64,000 bases of DNA, from positions 1 to 64,000 of the forward strand of contig JAQXOB010000045.1 of the NCBI GenBank assembly GCA_029098305.1. Reading direction: 5' to 3'. Positions within the stretch are counted from its first letter, which is position 1. Each line of letters begins with the position of its first letter. This document shows, one piece after another, positions 24,088-55,008 of this stretch. The notes under the pieces are model-generated. The model was not told the origin of the DNA. It made no database searches and worked only from the letters and a program-made list of their open reading frames with translations. The translations under genes were made by a program, and so were the position numbers. The stretch is from Clostridia bacterium (lineage in GTDB: Bacteria; Bacillota; Clostridia; Oscillospirales; Acutalibacteraceae).

Positions 24088-24429
24088 TTATATAATCAAA
24101 TACATCAGTGCTAGGATGGTTTCACTGGGAGCTTTTTCCTCTGCCAAAATCATTATGAGCAGAATTATCAGGCTCTTCTCCTTATCTTTCATAATAATAT
24201 CTAACAGACTTGGCATGGAATCAGTACCGGAGCTGTTAGACTGTGGCAGGTGCATCTCCACGGGAGACTCAGCATGGGTGTTTTCTTTTTTATCAAAATT
24301 TTTTTGTTCTTGCATGGGTGAAGACCTTGATTTGCGGTTAGATTGTTCCATTTGCCGCACTCTGTTCTGGGCCTCCCTTTGCAAGTTGTTATACTCAGAT
24401 TGGTTTGACTTTTCAGGCACGAGCATCAT
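24088..24429 (-). CDS. hypothetical protein with hydrophobic C-terminus
   Basis: ORF overlapping or adjacent to co-directional small ORFs; C-term SLLDIIMKDKEKSLIILLIMILAEEKAPSETILALMYLII. Confidence 0.7.
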   Translation of the reverse strand: MMLVPEKSNQSEYNNLQREAQNRVRQMEQSNRKSRSSPMQEQKNFDKKENTHAESPVEMHLPQSNSSGTDSMPSLLDIIMKDKEKSLIILLIMILAEEKAPSETILALMYLII

Positions 24430-24446
24430 ACCCTTTTTATATTATT

Positions 24447-24812
24447 TTATTCTAAATTAAATTCTCTTATTAATGGAATTATTTTCATAACACGAAGCAG
24501 TTTTATTGCTTCATCCAGCTTTTTTTGACGGTCATGGCTTAGTAATGGACGCAAAGAATAGAGTAGCCTGGTGGTGTCGTCATCACGATTGCATTTATTC
24601 ATTAGTGGCATCAGCTTCATAGCGGTGCTTAGCATTTCAGATTGGTTTCCACCGGTTAGGCTATCCGTAATATTTGAAAAGCTGTTGTTTTCTACCGGAG
24701 GAGGTTTTGCATTTGCTTGCCCTCCCGAGAACATTCCGGCTAGACTCTTTAGCTTTTCCATAGCTGTGGGATCATTCAGAATTTCCGAGATTTTGTTATT
24801 TAAGTCTTCCAT
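24447..24812 (-). CDS. hypothetical protein
   Basis: 121 aa ORF, co-directional and tightly packed. Confidence 0.75.
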   Translation of the reverse strand: MEDLNNKISEILNDPTAMEKLKSLAGMFSGGQANAKPPPVENNSFSNITDSLTGGNQSEMLSTAMKLMPLMNKCNRDDDTTRLLYSLRPLLSHDRQKKLDEAIKLLRVMKIIPLIREFNLE

Positions 24813-24815
24813 AGG

Positions 24816-25040
24816 CTAACCCTCTTTTTGGTTCAACTTTCTGATCAGTTCCTGTGCTTGTGGTGACGACAATATCTTTTTGGCATAATCTTTGTCATTT
24901 AATGCACGATTAAAGCTCTCTGCTTGTTCCTGTGATAGTCCCATAGAGTTAGCCAATTTTCCGTTTTTTAGAGATTTTTCCAGTTCTTCAGGTGTAGTGC
25001 CAAGTTGTGCAGCAGCCTTTTTGATTAATCGTTTATCCAT
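24816..25040 (-). CDS. hypothetical small helical protein
   Basis: 74 aa ORF with a plausible RBS (ggggga); 3 bp from the next ORF. Confidence 0.75.
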   Translation of the reverse strand: MDKRLIKKAAAQLGTTPEELEKSLKNGKLANSMGLSQEQAESFNRALNDKDYAKKILSSPQAQELIRKLNQKEG

Positions 25041-27651: not shown

Positions 27652-28296
27652 TTAAGCGTTCTGCAAAAGTCTGATTGCCTCTGCGGGATCTTCTGCCTTA
27701 AACACGCCTGTGCCGGATACAGCAATGTCAATGCCGGCTGCTGATGCTTGTGATGCAGTCTGCATATTTATTCCACCGTCAGCCTCTATTAAGATAGCAG
27801 TGCCAATTTCTTTAGCCTTATTCTTAATAGCAGATACCTTAGGCAACATATCTGCCATGAAAGATTGACCGCCAAATCCGGGCTCTACTGTCATTATCAA
27901 TACCATATATATATCTTCAAGATACGGGAACACAGCTTCAGCAGGTGTGTTTGGCTTGATTACCAGTCCGGGCTTTATGCCAAGTGATTTTATTTTCTCA
28001 ATAGTTTCTTTTATGTCGTCTTTAGCCTCTACATGAAATGTGATGATGTCAGCACCGGCATCAGCAAAGCGTTCTACATATTCTAGCGGATGATCTATCA
28101 TCAGATGCACATCAAATGGGATGGTTGCGTATTTTCTAAGTGATTTGATCACGTCAGGGCCAAAAGTTATGTTTGGTACAAAGTGACCATCCATAATATC
28201 TATGTGTATGAGATCCGCTTTTGCATCTTCCATTCTTTTTATTTCTTCACCCAGCTTTGAAAAATCACTCGCTAGAATTGATGGTGCTATTTTCAT
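27652..28296 (-). CDS. rpe: ribulose-phosphate 3-epimerase
   Basis: APSILASDFSKLGEEI, HIDIMDGHFVPNITFGPDVI, DVHLMI, MTVEPGFGGQSF, DGGI. Confidence 0.97.
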   Translation of the reverse strand: MKIAPSILASDFSKLGEEIKRMEDAKADLIHIDIMDGHFVPNITFGPDVIKSLRKYATIPFDVHLMIDHPLEYVERFADAGADIITFHVEAKDDIKETIEKIKSLGIKPGLVIKPNTPAEAVFPYLEDIYMVLIMTVEPGFGGQSFMADMLPKVSAIKNKAKEIGTAILIEADGGINMQTASQASAAGIDIAVSGTGVFKAEDPAEAIRLLQNA

Positions 28297-28325: not shown

Positions 28326-30707
28326 TTATTTCTTTGTGATAGTTGGTAAAATCAGGGATACAACAGTCCAGAACAAAGTATACAAAATTATTCTCAACGG
28401 ACTGATGAGGATGCCACCATGGAGCAGTATCACAGTTGCCACTATAATGCATAAAAGACTTGATATCACCTGCAATAAAGTCAGCAATCTTGTAGTTGAG
28501 ATTAACCTTTTGCTATAAGCAAAACAATATGCCATTGATAAGAAGCTACCCATTGTGACTGCATATGGCTTTACATTCTCAATCTTTTCACTAGAAAGCT
28601 CTTTAAATATATTTCCAAGTCCAGACGGCAAAATCTTTATGCTTCTTTGATACAATCCAAAGTCTTTTGCTATCTTTTCAGAAGTGATAGCTTCAGATGA
28701 TGTTCTGATAAGCACGCATATGCCTGCCTCACTCAGTGATCTAAGGGCATGTGCCACTTTGGAATCCGGTCTATATCTCACCACCAACATGGCATATAGT
28801 GTTCCCTTCATGGCTATGTAGGTTATATTACAACCGTTCTCTGTGTATCGTCCTTCAAAATCCTTTGACGGAGTATCTATACCATGAGCGTTCATAAGCT
28901 GTGCATTACCCACCAAAATACGCTCGCCATATATCCAGCCTACAAGTCCCTTGTCGTCTTCAAATATAACACTATCACAGGATGGAATCTGTGGATTTTC
29001 CTTAAAAATTCCCGATAGCACATCGTATAGAGGACTTTTGGCCGCTTTTACAACAGATAGAGCATTTACAAGAGGCTCATCTATATCAGCTTGACCAAAT
29101 TTTTTGATTGCAATAAGCTGTGGTGCTCCCTTAGGATAGAGTGCACGATCCGTAATGACAATGGATGATGAAGAATTAAACTTTCTGGCTGATGCATATC
29201 CCACAAGCATGGCTTTCTTTTTGAGAGCATTATTACAAAATCTCTTTGTCATCAGTTCAGATGTGAGCACAGCATTTATTGGAGCTGCACAACAGCATAT
29301 AATTGCAAATGCATTAAAACCGGCTATTACTCCGCTTTTTATACCGCATATTACAGATATTACAGTTGCAAATAGCATAATTGGCACAGCAAGTCGGTTT
29401 ATGACCGTCATGCCTTTATATCCATTGCAAGATAGCTCAAAAAAGCCTTTGTAATGTTCGCTTGGGCGTTGATAGACTATATTAGTCTTTGGTGATGCCA
29501 CACCATTTAGTATAAGTGGCTTAGTCTGTTTATCTTTGTAGTTTCGCAGGATGTATTTATTCCCTGCAGAGCATAGAAAGCTATAGTTTTTTCGTGTTCT
29601 CTCGTTTGCTGTAAGCTTTGCATATGTACTAAATAACATTATAAAAAGGAGAAAAACAGAAAAATATTTGTAGTTTTCTTTGTAAAACTCACCAGACGCA
29701 AAAAATGCAGAAATACTTTGAATAAGAACGGCGAATCCGGCAATAGCAGAGCCTGTATCTCTGTTGCCACCGCTTTTTATCGCTTTTAAACCTGATGCTA
29801 TGGTTTTTCTGCCTGCAAGCAGTGCAAAGCAAGTTATCAGCAGATTGATAGCACAGTACATTACCGGTGCAGCAGGACCTGTTCCAAACAGATTTGGGTT
29901 TGCACCTTTTATAATAAAGAATATCACAGATGCTATCATGAGCAAAACAAGAATTAGCGTGCTCACATAAAGAGAAGTAGAGTTCTCGTATAGCTTTGCC
30001 TTTATTTTGAGAGGCTCTGTTTCATTATCAAACTCATTTTTATATTGTGTGCCGTCAATATGTTTTTTCTGAAAACTGTTTATTTTAGAAAGGATAGGGG
30101 ATAGGTTAATTTTAAACTTCTCGGTAATTCTATTCTTTTTCTTTAATTTTACCGGAATATCCTCATTTATCGTTTTCTTCTTAATTTCATTATTATCGTA
30201 TTTTACATAGTTTTCATATTCACGTCTAACAATATTTGAAAATTTTCCAACAGAAACAGACAATACAGGAATCTCTTGATCTGGCTCTACCAATTTTTCC
30301 TTAGGCTCTTCACTTTTATGTTCGGTTTTATCGTCATCTGTTTTTTTACTATGTGTTTTGATATCATCCTTATTCACCACGATAGTTTTTTCTTCTTCTG
30401 ATGATGAATCGTGAGTTTCTACCCTTTCAAATATAGCTGTTTTCGGGCCTTTTGAAGAGGTAGCATCGTCATTATCAGAAGTTTTTGAATTATTTGCACT
30501 ACTATCTGTATTTCTTTGATGATCTTTTACCTTATCAAGATAGTCGATGATATCAAAAAGCTCACGAGTGCTGGTTGAAGCTTCAGGTAAATCATCCAAA
30601 GGATTTTGCTTTGTCAGACGTACTTCTTTTGATGCGTTGCTATAAATGTCTTCACGCTTTGATTTGAAATCGGATTTTTTACTTTTATCTTTGTTGTTTC
30701 CAAGCAT
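28326..30707 (-). CDS. P-type ATPase-like membrane protein lacking catalytic motifs, with long hydrophilic N-terminus
   Basis: 793 aa; P1B-like order: TM pairs, AAPINAV at the CPC position, SSIVITDRALYPKGAPQL where DKTGT is expected, GLVGWIYGERILVGNAQLMNAHGID N-domain-like, YRPDSKVAHALRSLSEAGICVLIRTSSEAITSEKIAKDFGL P-domain-like. Confidence 0.75.
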   Translation of the reverse strand: MLGNNKDKSKKSDFKSKREDIYSNASKEVRLTKQNPLDDLPEASTSTRELFDIIDYLDKVKDHQRNTDSSANNSKTSDNDDATSSKGPKTAIFERVETHDSSSEEEKTIVVNKDDIKTHSKKTDDDKTEHKSEEPKEKLVEPDQEIPVLSVSVGKFSNIVRREYENYVKYDNNEIKKKTINEDIPVKLKKKNRITEKFKINLSPILSKINSFQKKHIDGTQYKNEFDNETEPLKIKAKLYENSTSLYVSTLILVLLMIASVIFFIIKGANPNLFGTGPAAPVMYCAINLLITCFALLAGRKTIASGLKAIKSGGNRDTGSAIAGFAVLIQSISAFFASGEFYKENYKYFSVFLLFIMLFSTYAKLTANERTRKNYSFLCSAGNKYILRNYKDKQTKPLILNGVASPKTNIVYQRPSEHYKGFFELSCNGYKGMTVINRLAVPIMLFATVISVICGIKSGVIAGFNAFAIICCCAAPINAVLTSELMTKRFCNNALKKKAMLVGYASARKFNSSSSIVITDRALYPKGAPQLIAIKKFGQADIDEPLVNALSVVKAAKSPLYDVLSGIFKENPQIPSCDSVIFEDDKGLVGWIYGERILVGNAQLMNAHGIDTPSKDFEGRYTENGCNITYIAMKGTLYAMLVVRYRPDSKVAHALRSLSEAGICVLIRTSSEAITSEKIAKDFGLYQRSIKILPSGLGNIFKELSSEKIENVKPYAVTMGSFLSMAYCFAYSKRLISTTRLLTLLQVISSLLCIIVATVILLHGGILISPLRIILYTLFWTVVSLILPTITKK

Positions 30708-30754: not shown

Positions 30755-31528
30755 TTAGTTTCGTTGTTTAGCTGCTTCATACATTGCAATTCCGGCAGCT
30801 ACAGAAGCATTTAAAGAATTTATTTTTCCATACATCGGCAGTGATACCATACCATCACATTTGCTTTCTACAAGCTTGCCGATCCCTTTTCCTTCGTTTC
30901 CAATCACCAGGGCAATGCTTCCTGTTAGATTGGTTTTGTATATAGATTCGCCATTCATGTCGGTTCCATATACCCACACGCCCATGTCTTTTATCTTGTC
31001 GATAGTTGAGGCTATATTCGTCACTTTTACAATATGCATATATTCCAATGCACCGGCAGATGCCTTATGCACTGTGTATGTAAGCCCTGATGAGCGCCTT
31101 TTTGGAATTATTACACCATGCACACCGGCACATTCTGCTGTTCTGATTATTGCACCTAGATTGTGTGGATCTTCTATCTCATCAAGAATTAATATAAAAG
31201 GATCTTCTCCACGTTCCTTTGCTGTTGCAAAGATATCTTCTAACTGCGAATATTCTTTCATAGCGGCATAAGCCACCACACCCTGATGGTTGCCATGACC
31301 GCACATATAATCCATTTTTCTGGCATCAGCTTCTTTTACGGTAATACCTTTTTCTTTTGCCTTAGATATTATCACAGCCGTAGTGCCGCTATATGGTGTG
31401 CCTTTTGCAATGATTATATTATCTAGTTCACGACCACTTTTTAGTGCTTCCAGCACAGAGTTTCTGCCTATTATTATATTTTCATTAATGTTGTTATTTT
31501 TATCGTCTTCTCTTTTTTTATCTATCAT
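30755..31528 (-). CDS. rlmB: 23S rRNA (guanosine-2'-O-)-methyltransferase RlmB family (SpoU)
   Basis: IIGRNSVLEALKSG, ILDEIEDPHNLGAIIRTAECAGVHGVI, ALVIGNEGKGI, LPMYGKINSLNASVAAGIAMYEA. Confidence 0.95.
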   Translation of the reverse strand: MIDKKREDDKNNNINENIIIGRNSVLEALKSGRELDNIIIAKGTPYSGTTAVIISKAKEKGITVKEADARKMDYMCGHGNHQGVVAYAAMKEYSQLEDIFATAKERGEDPFILILDEIEDPHNLGAIIRTAECAGVHGVIIPKRRSSGLTYTVHKASAGALEYMHIVKVTNIASTIDKIKDMGVWVYGTDMNGESIYKTNLTGSIALVIGNEGKGIGKLVESKCDGMVSLPMYGKINSLNASVAAGIAMYEAAKQRN

Positions 31529-37238: not shown

Positions 37239-40202
37239 TTATGGATTTGCTTTTTCTAAATTGTCAATAGCATCATTAAGCTGATTATATGCATATTCCA
37301 GTTCATCTATCTGTGCATATTCATCATCATATATGGCTATGGCATCACGATATGCATCTGTAAAGTTTAAAAATGAATCTGCCGTGTAATATCCATCGTC
37401 ATTGTTATAAAAGCTGTCTTTAAATTTCTCAATATTATCAAGAAGCTTTTTTATTTTTTGTTTTAGTTCCTCAATGCTCTCTAAATCGTCTTCGTTGCCT
37501 TCATTTTCAATAAATTCACCGGCATCAAACATATCAATAAGATCGGCTATGTATTTTTGTATGTCTGTTACATCTACAAGGTTTATTTCCAAATCTCCGT
37601 TTACATCTGCTGCCGATAGCTGAAGATCATCAAGTTCTATTAAACATGCGATGTACTTTTGCAAACTTGTAACATCAGACATAGTGACGCTTCCATCAAG
37701 ATCCACATCGCCTACAAATATTTGTTTTTTATCAGTGTCAGTTGATATAGGTGGGTTGCCGTTTCTTTTTATGTAGCAGGCACTTGAACCTGTGCGAAGC
37801 TGATATGTGTTTTCATAAATCGAGAATACACAGTAAATATCAACTATATCTCCAGCTTTTATATCCGAAGAATATTCTTCGGCATTGTATATATTTATTG
37901 AACCTGTGCTATCACTGATAGATGTATATCCATCAGAGATATGTTCACCAAGCGTAACATTTCTTATAACTATGAGTTCATTTAGATAGTCGTCTGCCTT
38001 TGATGAGCGTAATCGCGAAATAGTAACCTCTTGTGCAGGCATTATTTCACATTCTTCTAAAGGCTCAACCTTTTCTATTTCTTTTATCTCACGAAGTCCT
38101 TTATAATTAGTGATTTTTCCACTAACTATAACTACCTGACCGTCATCATATTTATCCAGAAGTCCACTATCATCAACTAGCAACAATCCATGAGCTTCTC
38201 CATTTATTTCATCTTCGATGATAATATAATTCTTTTCACCGCCGGACTTTGAAGAATACTTATGGGTTATTTGTCCAATTACATCTACTACATCGCCGTC
38301 TTGGATACCCATAGCGTCCTCTATGGTAAAAATACCATCAGGTACCATATTTGTCGGAATAGGATCAAGATTATCATTATAATCCTTTATATTCAGTGTG
38401 CAGTTAGATGAAAAGTTGCCATCCTCTGAAACAACGGTTATAGTCGTAGTGCCAGGCTTTAATGCGATGATGCGACCTGCCTGTGATATTATGGCAATGC
38501 TTTCATCAGCAGATGCCCAACGCACTTTTTTGTTTGTTGTATTTTCAGGAGTAAATTTAACTGTGAGAACTGCTGAGTTTCCCTGCGATAAGGTAAGATA
38601 ATCTTTGTTAAGCTCAATTTTTCTCGCTTTAATATTCATATCAAAGCTTTCGCCTATCATGAGATGAGATGTAAAAGCCTTTATTCTGAAATTAATGCCG
38701 TCATCTTTTGCCACGTTTACCCAATTGTTCATATTAGTGCTAAAAAAGCTTTGGTTAGATATTGCAGTATTTGTAAAGCTTATCCAGCTAAGCGAACTTT
38801 CAGTTTTATCGCATGGCAGAATTACTCTTTCTGAGGCATTGTCTTTAAAAAGTCTAACTACTACAGAAAAGCGTTGACCTTTTGTGAGTTGAATACTCTC
38901 CGGTAAAGGGATAGTATGTATACCGGCATATTTTTTTGTGCCTTTTAAAGGTGTGGGTAACGCTCTTTTACCAGATAAAGGGTCTGTACGAGATTGCAAA
39001 TCAGTGTAAATTTCAACAGAATAGTTTACATTCGGATCATATGTCACGAAGGAAACAGCATTAAGGTAATCATTATACTGTGATGTGAAGATATTAGACA
39101 TATATCCACCGCCGGTAAATCCACCATTGATAGGATCAGTTCCATCAGAATAGTTTGAGGTTGGATTGCTGGTGCCATCATATTGATAATTATAGTCATA
39201 TTGATTTACAGATGAAAACTCAAGAAAACAAGCATCATCCTCTAAAAGTGACGCATCCTCGTATGATAGCCATATATAACCATAACTACCAAATCCCTCA
39301 CCCCAACTATTTTTTACCAGCCATGCACCATTATTTTTTGGCTTTGAGAGCGGAAAATTTTCTTTGCTGTAAGAGTCGTTCCATCCTACTATGCACGCCT
39401 CGTGGTTGGCAGATTGTGTTTTGCCGGAGGTTGGTATGTAACAATATCCGCTTGTAACGCTGGATAAGTATTCTTCGTCAAAGTAAAAGCCGATCATGGC
39501 AGAGCCATATTTTAGTATAAGCTGTTTAATATCGTTTTTGTCTTTTGTAGAAACAAAATAAGCGTTTTTTAGTAATGCTTCATTTATGCCATAAGCTTTT
39601 TTATTATCTAAAACGTTGAATCCGGAATATGCATTTTGAAAAGAAAATTCACTGTGCTTTTTCTCATCTACTACACCGGTCCATCTTGCAAGTGAAAGAG
39701 CAGAGATATAGTGCATGCCACCGGATGAAAGAAAATCAGTGGATGGAGAAGTGTAATCACCCTCAAGTAGTCCGAGCTTGTCATAAGCATTGTTATTTAA
39801 ATAGTAAGCCAAATGAAGCTCAGATAAATCAATATCATTGATATCAAAATCATTTAACTTTATCAGGCTTGATTCTGCAGTGCTCATCGCAGAAAAAGCC
39901 CAGCAGGTGTTTGTTTCTCCTTGATCTTTTACCGATGTAATAAAGGGTTTATCCTCCAGACGAGGGTCATAATAAGCAGGAATAGTTAAATAGTTCTGAC
40001 TTTTGCCCACGCTATCCACGGAGAAATCAATATCCATATATCCACTTTCGGATGGCTTGCTTATATCAAATGAATGAACCACTCCGCTTGCACTAGTGCT
40101 GTGTGCCGAAGCATTATATGCAGGGATTATAGAAGCACATATAATTGTTGATAGGACTACTATGGAAATCATTCTATGAGAAAACTTTGAAATAGTTTTC
40201 AT
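37239..40202 (-). CDS. secreted C1 (papain-like) peptidase with BIG2-like, OB-fold-like and dockerin modules
   Basis: Signal peptide; DQGETNTCWAFSAMSTAES, NHEACIVGWND, WLVKNSWGEGFGSYGYIWLSYED; VTLSQGNSAVLTVKFTPENTTNKKVRWASADESIAII (BIG2); GDVDLDGSVTMSDVTSLQKYI / ADVNGDLEINLVDVTDIQKYI (dockerin). Confidence 0.9.
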   Translation of the reverse strand: MKTISKFSHRMISIVVLSTIICASIIPAYNASAHSTSASGVVHSFDISKPSESGYMDIDFSVDSVGKSQNYLTIPAYYDPRLEDKPFITSVKDQGETNTCWAFSAMSTAESSLIKLNDFDINDIDLSELHLAYYLNNNAYDKLGLLEGDYTSPSTDFLSSGGMHYISALSLARWTGVVDEKKHSEFSFQNAYSGFNVLDNKKAYGINEALLKNAYFVSTKDKNDIKQLILKYGSAMIGFYFDEEYLSSVTSGYCYIPTSGKTQSANHEACIVGWNDSYSKENFPLSKPKNNGAWLVKNSWGEGFGSYGYIWLSYEDASLLEDDACFLEFSSVNQYDYNYQYDGTSNPTSNYSDGTDPINGGFTGGGYMSNIFTSQYNDYLNAVSFVTYDPNVNYSVEIYTDLQSRTDPLSGKRALPTPLKGTKKYAGIHTIPLPESIQLTKGQRFSVVVRLFKDNASERVILPCDKTESSLSWISFTNTAISNQSFFSTNMNNWVNVAKDDGINFRIKAFTSHLMIGESFDMNIKARKIELNKDYLTLSQGNSAVLTVKFTPENTTNKKVRWASADESIAIISQAGRIIALKPGTTTITVVSEDGNFSSNCTLNIKDYNDNLDPIPTNMVPDGIFTIEDAMGIQDGDVVDVIGQITHKYSSKSGGEKNYIIIEDEINGEAHGLLLVDDSGLLDKYDDGQVVIVSGKITNYKGLREIKEIEKVEPLEECEIMPAQEVTISRLRSSKADDYLNELIVIRNVTLGEHISDGYTSISDSTGSINIYNAEEYSSDIKAGDIVDIYCVFSIYENTYQLRTGSSACYIKRNGNPPISTDTDKKQIFVGDVDLDGSVTMSDVTSLQKYIACLIELDDLQLSAADVNGDLEINLVDVTDIQKYIADLIDMFDAGEFIENEGNEDDLESIEELKQKIKKLLDNIEKFKDSFYNNDDGYYTADSFLNFTDAYRDAIAIYDDEYAQIDELEYAYNQLNDAIDNLEKANP

Positions 40203-52821: not shown

Positions 52822-52929
52822 TTCTAAATAGCCATGGACAAAGTCTAAATTGTTGACTATTGTTAATAAAAGTTGTATAATTTTTCTTGTCTTATGACCT
52901 AATTTATATAAATCGTGGAGGTTTTAAAA

Positions 52930-55008
52930 ATGAAATCGATTAAAAGATTGTTGTGCGTTGTGCTTTCTATTACAATGTTAGCATCGATGGCAACAGCGAT
53001 TGCATCTGAATCTGATGCCAAAGCACTATCTCTTGGTGATGTTGATGGTGATACATATATATCAATGAGAGATGTTGTTGAAATACAACGCTATGTGGCT
53101 GATCTCACAGACTTATCTGATGATCAAAAAAAGGCTGCTGATGTGGATGAACCATATGAAAATGTAAATATGTTGGATGTTGTTACAATACAAAAATACA
53201 TAGCCCAGCTTATTTCTGAGTTTCCTGCAGAATCAAGAGAATTTAATGATTCCGAGAATGATATACAGCATGATACAGATATAAGTTCTTCAAGTGATAT
53301 CATTGATACTTCAACAGATACTTTAGATACATCAAGTGATACTGAATTTGATACTACAGTTGATGTTGTTTCTATAAAAGATGTTCTCTCAGCAAGCGTT
53401 GGTGCTAATCTTACCACAAGAGGTCAGGTGTGCTATGTCTATGATGGCAACACTGTAATCATAGAAGAAGTTGAGGAAGATGGCACTGTCAATGGTTTGA
53501 TGATTTTTGACAAAGAAGGAATCGCAGGCGGTTTCTATGAGTTAAACAGCATTGTTGAAGTTACAGGTACAACAAAGTTATATAATGGAAGCAACGAGTT
53601 AACAGATATATCTTCTATAGCTATTATGTCAAAACAGAATAAACCTATAGCTCCTGTTGAGTCAACCGTATCAGAATTGAAGGAGCATATAAATACTGTT
53701 GCTGTAATCAAAAACTGTAAGCTAGGTGCATATGATTCCAATAGTTCTAATGTTACTGATGCTACAGGTACAGTTGTATCATACAAGCCAGCTATGTATC
53801 CGGATGGTGTAACAGAAGGTTCTGCAGTTGATCTTGTGTGCTTGCCAACAATGTATAAGGATGCAGTTCAAATCCGTGTAGCAGATAAGAGCAACTATAT
53901 GCCTTTGGGTAGCTTCGTTGATACAGATTCTGAAACAGCATCAGAAACAGATACCTCCACATCAACAGATACAAACACAAGTCCAATCGAAATTACAGGC
54001 AACAGAGTTGTTTTTGGAGAGCCAATTACATCTCTTGATAAGATTGTAAATAGACCGGTTGCAATAACAATCAGCAATGAGGCACTAAGTGCAGCCGAAC
54101 CAAACTCTTCATACGCCGGCGCACTTGATATAAAAACTGTTGAAGGAAAGCTTACAGCAAGCAGTGATTGTGTCTATATAATTGAACATGTAGCAGGTTC
54201 ATATCTTTTAAAGAGCCATGCTACCGGTAAATATCTCACAAACAATGTTAAGACAGAATCTGTGTTCTCATCTGAGATTACAGAAGCTGCATATATGTCA
54301 ATTACTTTTGCATCAGATTTATTCGAAATCTCATCAATAAATCAGGAGAGAGAGCTTGCACTCTTTATTGGAGAGAACAAAAATTCTTTCCGTTGGTATG
54401 TGTCAACAGCACAGACATCGCTTTCACGTGATGTTAAAATATATCCTATCGTTTCTTCATATAATGAGGAAATAGACACATCCACAGACACCGCAACAGA
54501 TACAACATCTGATACATCGACAGACACATCCGGTGCAATTAATGCCAATCAAAAAGTTTATCTCACTAATAATGCAACTTCTGTGGACCAGATAATCGGC
54601 AAAAAAGTTGTTCTGACTATCAAAAACTGTGCAGTAATCGGCGAGCTATCAGGCAACAATGGAGTCGCAAGAGATATCGAATCAGACGAAGATGGAATGT
54701 ATGTAGATGGAAAGGCTGTATTTACGGTTGTTTTTGAGAATGATTCTTATTACCTCTATAATGAAGTAAGCAAAAAATATTATGGATATAAGGGCAATAA
54801 TTCTTATACATCACTGTATAATTCTATTTGTAATGATGCTATGCTAAATATCACATATAATTCAAGCAATTCATCATTTTTAATTTCCAGTGTGGTGAAC
54901 ACTCATGAATTGTCATTTTTCTCTTCTACGGGCAATTCATTTAGATGGTACGAGCCAAATGCGTTCACAGATCGCTCACGTGATGTTGTGATATACCTTG
55001 TTGACTAA
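52930..55008 (+). CDS. secreted protein with N-terminal dockerin, OB-fold-like region and two copies of an FRWY-type domain
   Basis: Signal peptide; LGDVDGDTYISMRDVVEIQRYVADL..NVNMLDVVTIQKYIAQLI; Asp/Ser/Thr linkers; repeated SFRWY...SRDVxIY domains. Confidence 0.85.
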   Translation: MKSIKRLLCVVLSITMLASMATAIASESDAKALSLGDVDGDTYISMRDVVEIQRYVADLTDLSDDQKKAADVDEPYENVNMLDVVTIQKYIAQLISEFPAESREFNDSENDIQHDTDISSSSDIIDTSTDTLDTSSDTEFDTTVDVVSIKDVLSASVGANLTTRGQVCYVYDGNTVIIEEVEEDGTVNGLMIFDKEGIAGGFYELNSIVEVTGTTKLYNGSNELTDISSIAIMSKQNKPIAPVESTVSELKEHINTVAVIKNCKLGAYDSNSSNVTDATGTVVSYKPAMYPDGVTEGSAVDLVCLPTMYKDAVQIRVADKSNYMPLGSFVDTDSETASETDTSTSTDTNTSPIEITGNRVVFGEPITSLDKIVNRPVAITISNEALSAAEPNSSYAGALDIKTVEGKLTASSDCVYIIEHVAGSYLLKSHATGKYLTNNVKTESVFSSEITEAAYMSITFASDLFEISSINQERELALFIGENKNSFRWYVSTAQTSLSRDVKIYPIVSSYNEEIDTSTDTATDTTSDTSTDTSGAINANQKVYLTNNATSVDQIIGKKVVLTIKNCAVIGELSGNNGVARDIESDEDGMYVDGKAVFTVVFENDSYYLYNEVSKKYYGYKGNNSYTSLYNSICNDAMLNITYNSSNSSFLISSVVNTHELSFFSSTGNSFRWYEPNAFTDRSRDVVIYLVD

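Follow-up and report, generated by a model that had tools for sequence, protein, structure and literature searches.

A gene identified on the minus strand of the window (28326..30707), the window being the 64,000-nucleotide stretch of contig JAQXOB010000045.1 (assembly GCA_029098305.1, Acutalibacteraceae) that was analysed, encodes a 793-residue P1B-type ATPase-like protein that is very probably a non-pumping pseudoenzyme. For the family to which it belongs, a P1B fold, the loss of all P-type catalytic motifs, new conserved motifs, monophyly, purifying selection and a fixed synteny with rlmB are established. From the fold, losses, motifs, selection and synteny, we infer that there is no Post-Albers phosphorylation cycle and no ATP-driven metal pumping. 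The best reading of the gene is as a member of a new bacterial P-type-fold pseudoenzyme family. The full account, in which a dead P1B family arose in or before the Oscillospirales ancestor and now acts as a membrane scaffold or sensor at the rlmB locus, is considered reasonably probable.

The original prediction had described a long, intact ORF, and the reading frame was found to be unbroken. Its product was matched by NCBIfam CopA (residues 443-707, E=1e-14) and by LpCopA (3rfu; residues 453-706, E=8e-13), and similarity to P1B pumps is, on these alignments, well above chance. The similarity is significant, yet far under the NCBI curated cut-offs, and Pfam identified HAD alone, below threshold (E=0.014). 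Upstream, after a gap of 47 bases, lies rlmB (30755..31528), a conserved neighbour identified with Pfam and by synteny, which encodes an rRNA methyltransferase of the SpoU/TrmH type. Downstream, 29 bases on, lies rpe (27652..28296, identified with Pfam), a neighbour present at this position in only part of the order. All three genes share the minus strand, as do the segments of the ATPase-like gene described below.

An AlphaFold2 model of residues 225-793, built on 27 relatives, was obtained with a pLDDT of 88 and a pTM of 0.82, the evidence being one static model per member that does not extend to dynamics. A Foldseek search with this model returned LpCopA as the top solved structure (4bbj, E=1e-16); further P1B pumps, among them ATP7B and the zinc pump 4umw, ranked next. 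Whole-chain TM-scores were approximately 0.5, as is expected where domains sit at differing angles. The model of a very divergent member (pLDDT 84, pTM 0.82) likewise gave LpCopA as its top match (4bbj, 3e-17). The modules of the window model run in the order MA, MB, M1, M2, a short loop, M3, M4, the P/N/P domains, M5 and M6. The P1B module order originally proposed was therefore borne out, by the helix and domain order of the model and by LpCopA as top match, and structure prediction, far from showing no P-type similarity, gave a P1B fold.

The modules are preceded by a charged, probably disordered N-terminal extension (residues 1-230, 30018..30707) without a recognised Pfam domain; previously put at ~240 residues, it is real and covers about 230. 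In the model, helix MA (residues 231-269, 29901..30017) is followed by MB (279-312, 29772..29873), which is broken near Gly299 and carries Gly306, a residue nearly invariant across the family. M1 (318-333, 29709..29756) lies behind a conserved N-x-D-[TS] (N-R-D-T in the window), the equivalent of NMD[TV]L. Between M2 (350-379, 29571..29660) and M3 (440-458, 29334..29390), model and alignment place a loop of about 60 residues that lacks TGE and replaces the A-domain (380-439, 29391..29570). M4 (460-496, 29220..29330) is broken at Pro476, and M5 (722-763, 28419..28544) and M6 (770-791, 28335..28400) end the protein. The N-domain (536-638, 28794..29102), delimited by alignment and conservation, retains Gly587 and Gly600 and has Ser558 at the position of the SEHP His.

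At the site of DKTGTLTxG, TDRALYPKG was found (residues 519-527, 29127..29153). The motif had earlier been called as degraded to DRALYPKG; the loss stands, while the register was one residue out, since the gap-free HMMER alignment with LpCopA and the family alignment both place Thr519 at the phosphorylated Asp and Asp520 at the Lys position. The M4 metal site (CPC/SPC/CPH) is likewise missing, as had been claimed, although the aligned triplet is A475-P476-I477 and not the AAP given before; flanking Cys residues are not conserved in the family. RTSS, as first read, occupies the TGD site (668-671, 28695..28706; family consensus RTxD), so the Asp of TGD is Ser671. PSGL (694-697, 28617..28628) is found at the PxxK site, with Leu697 where the essential Lys is missing, and VTMGS (717-721, 28545..28559) at that of GDGxND, the last three sites being assigned by family alignment. 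The reported absence of GDGxND, and of the A-domain TGE, was thereby confirmed.

Neither DKTGT nor GDGxND was found in any of 155 family members, whereas 23 of the 24 true pumps used in comparison carry DKTG and 23 of 24 carry GDGxND; orthologues with an intact DKTGT did not come to light. The PxxK Lys is absent from all 154 members compared, and among the residues listed, the SEHP His that stacks on adenine is seen in no member. The family replaces DKTGTLT with D[AS]x[ED]L[FY]P, TGD with RTxDPN[IV]T and GDGxND with TxG[RK]. Conservation was ranked on a set thinned to <70% identity (73 sequences), and key columns of the first two replacements ranked high: the F/Y and P of L[FY]P lie at percentiles 96 and 98, and the T and D of RTxD at 97 and 99. 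The degenerate motifs are in this respect conserved among orthologues. Conservation of the GDGxND and CPC columns in the same set was mixed, being high only at their Gly and Pro.

The nucleophile Asp, the motif II Thr and the second Asp are retained together in 125 of 154 members (~80%). The window's genus has Thr for the nucleophile (T519) and lacks both Asp residues; relative to the family motifs the window protein keeps LYPxG and RT, with T-D-R-A for D-[AS]-x-[ED] and S671 for Asp. On this pattern the window protein is, as aligned, a derived member that has degenerated further. The family taken together owes its dead state mainly to the loss of motif III, motif IV, SEHP, TGE and CPC. The second Gly of GxG is present in 154 of 154 members and the region of the N-domain GN motif is strongly conserved. 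As ~80% of members keep the Asp/Thr/Asp set, phosphate chemistry or the binding of nucleotides may persist to some degree outside the window's genus.

With a family HMM of 27 members and an order-level threshold of E<=1e-30, full-length homologues were identified in 196 of 247 sampled Oscillospirales genomes, one per genome. At class level the 1e-24 threshold was passed by 12 of 288 genomes, each belonging to the order, and no full-length homologue was found outside Oscillospirales among the sampled Clostridia genomes; at phylum level the top matches beyond the order were true pumps. A single-sequence search (E<=0.001) of 200 genomes of the window's family gave matches in 188, and a few of the weakest matches may be true pumps. 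HMM scores were bimodal without overlap, no dead member scoring below 139 bits and no true pump above 106. Two further, weaker family-HMM matches in the window's own genome are presumably true pumps. Named relatives, scanned with a 9-row alignment and used to place the order as Oscillospirales (GTDB), include Caproiciproducens and Anaeromassilibacillus (Acutalibacteraceae), and some small-genome relatives were found to be without the gene altogether.

In a tree with 24 pumps, a single branch (SH-aLRT 100) separates the dead members from the pumps, and its stem measures 2.1 changes per column; the tree was made by a quick method, and several dead rows are long-branched. Values of dN/dS in close pairs were mostly 0.02-0.12 (highest 0.22), with 0.035 for the pair from the window's genus (L002-L003). 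The suggestion that selection maintains the gene accordingly held up, and there is good support for a pseudoenzyme family that is being maintained, because the degenerate sites are themselves conserved and dN/dS is low.

Synteny with rlmB was found to be nearly uniform. The rlmB gene lies directly upstream on the same strand in the window and in 67 of 72 named loci, the remaining five being on contigs that end at or near the ATPase-like gene, and rlmB is also upstream in 20 of 20 distant loci picked across families of the order. The median gap is about 30 bases, a few starts being mis-picked. Downstream genes differ, with rpe (18 of the 72 named loci), a gene that by its sequence resembles a translational GTPase, or a membrane protein in this position. 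Several genomes without the dead ATPase still have rlmB-type genes, with no copy beside them. A dependence of RlmB on the dead ATPase is therefore unlikely, and the protein does not appear to be needed for RlmB as such. A search of the literature on rlmB in this order found nothing.

In relatives the N-terminal arm covers about 150-1000 residues and is acidic, with no Pfam domain above threshold; the arm is nearly absent from members of a single family within the order (f150). A short FxxDxILxEAR-like motif was identified near the N-terminus of many relatives (L061-L132), ahead of the long acidic disordered arm, and is possibly a docking peptide. When three genomes were searched for the motif, no protein other than the family was found, in what is a weak test with a 30-residue query. 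In the longest arms (L079, L112), repeated basic amphipathic segments resembling KLKxLW or KxFW were observed between acidic stretches.

Among known systems, CopA-type P1B pumps (LpCopA, 3rfu/4bbj) are the closest, LpCopA being the top match to the family both by sequence and by structure. They share the order of MA, MB and M1-M6, the Pro-broken M4 and the P/N fold. Unlike LpCopA, the family lacks CPC, DKTGT, SEHP, the PxxK Lys, GDGxND and TGE, has an A-domain cut to about 60 residues and has an acidic disordered N-terminus without a recognised metal-binding domain. HAD-fold pseudoenzymes in general retain the HAD core and have lost motifs III and IV; in contrast to these, the HAD core of the dead ATPase sits in a full P-type membrane protein. 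Eukaryotic TMEM94/ERMA is the nearest precedent and was the only comparable case found. It has DKQGI for DKTGT, GSSANL for GDGVND and no TGE (PMC12134183, PMC13322241), and thus shares with the family a P-type fold, degenerate phosphorylation and GDGVND loops and the lack of TGE. Its catalytic status is disputed, as no ATPase activity was found for TMEM94 (PMC12134183), while Mg2+ transport dependent on its Asp was reported for ERMA (PMC13322241). It differs in being a eukaryotic, ten-helix protein that keeps D-K and whose nearest pumps are SPCA rather than P1B. Likened by description, it presumably underwent a change of this sort independently, and no entry named TMEM94 was among the best 50 Foldseek matches listed for either model.

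The same dead form is kept across the order, under strong selection and beside rlmB, and therefore probably has some non-pumping job. A role as membrane scaffold or sensor is slightly favoured. Under the proposed mechanism, eight helices might, with less certainty, serve as the membrane anchor; a protein or small ligand would bind at what used to be the active-site cleft between the P- and N-domains, and partners would be recruited by the long, acidic and disordered arm. The resulting scaffold or sensor would probably be produced together with the rRNA methyltransferase RlmB. Whether the gene may be called an order-wide hallmark, that is, a copper-type P1B ATPase turned non-pumping, tied to rlmB and with its cleft and arm remodelled for signalling or scaffolding, is evenly balanced.

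Several other explanations were weighed against this one. A decaying P1B pump gene, a relic nearing loss, might be suspected from the disappearance of every catalytic motif and from the gene being missing in some small-genome relatives, but the low dN/dS (mostly 0.02-0.12) and the shared new motifs rule it out, and its order-wide presence and fixed place beside rlmB leave it a negligible probability. It is unlikely, though less so, that ATP, ADP or another nucleotide is bound without hydrolysis and that the protein is an energy or nucleotide sensor acting through its N- and P-domains. The universal second Gly of GxG, the conserved GN region and the Asp/Thr/Asp set of most members would suit such a sensor, whereas the SEHP His is not among the listed residues, the PxxK Lys and the GDGxND Mg site are gone, and the window's genus additionally lacks both Asp residues. 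The retention of the whole P1B helix set with a Pro-broken M4 could also point to a passive membrane conduit or to a partner that regulates a true P1B pump, for which the two weaker HMM matches in the window's genome would be candidates. This is rather improbable, as the metal-binding CPC is gone and the sole fixed neighbour encodes an rRNA methyltransferase and is no metal gene.

Continued activity through unconventional catalysis, as an ERMA-like pump or a HAD-type phosphatase, is highly improbable. The Mg2+ movement reported for ERMA, for which the Asp is needed (PMC13322241), and the nucleophile Asp of most family members are consistent with it, but no member has the GDGxND acid motif or the motif III Lys, the nucleophile position of the window protein is Thr, and another group found TMEM94 to be without ATPase activity (PMC12134183). 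A sporulation-specific membrane protein is judged very unlikely. In its favour, the majority of the genomes sampled from the group possess Spo0A and SpoIVA, and the window has a gene for a SigG-like sigma factor a short way off; against this, two genomes (G022, G670) have the dead ATPase without Spo0A or SpoIVA, and nine sampled genomes have both without the dead ATPase. Presence of the gene does not track Spo0A or SpoIVA, and a sporulation link is unsupported.

Pseudoenzymes have hardly been described among the P-type ATPases, a large pump superfamily. A literature search joining 'P-type ATPase' with 'pseudoenzyme' found no paper, with subscription papers mostly outside its reach, and an earlier description is possible. 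If the non-pumping membrane scaffold or sensor proposed here is correct, the superfamily would have its first bacterial pseudoenzyme family that spans a whole clade. The dead ATPase is an unexplained piece of a gene set common to many gut bacteria, and as a single-copy, order-wide and strongly selected family with no Pfam or NCBIfam name it would offer an independent and genetically simple system. The question it opens is what a P-type fold can do without ATP hydrolysis.

Other features were observed in the window. Three adjoining small ORFs (113, 121 and 74 residues; 24088-25040, minus strand) without a Pfam match sit between the genes for a type III glutamine synthetase and the SigG-like factor. 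A 987-residue protein (37239-40202, minus strand) has papain-type protease, lectin-like, Big_2 and dockerin domains, a combination that suggests a cellulosome-type secreted protease. Dockerin was the only domain recognised in a 697-residue protein encoded on the plus strand (52915-55008).
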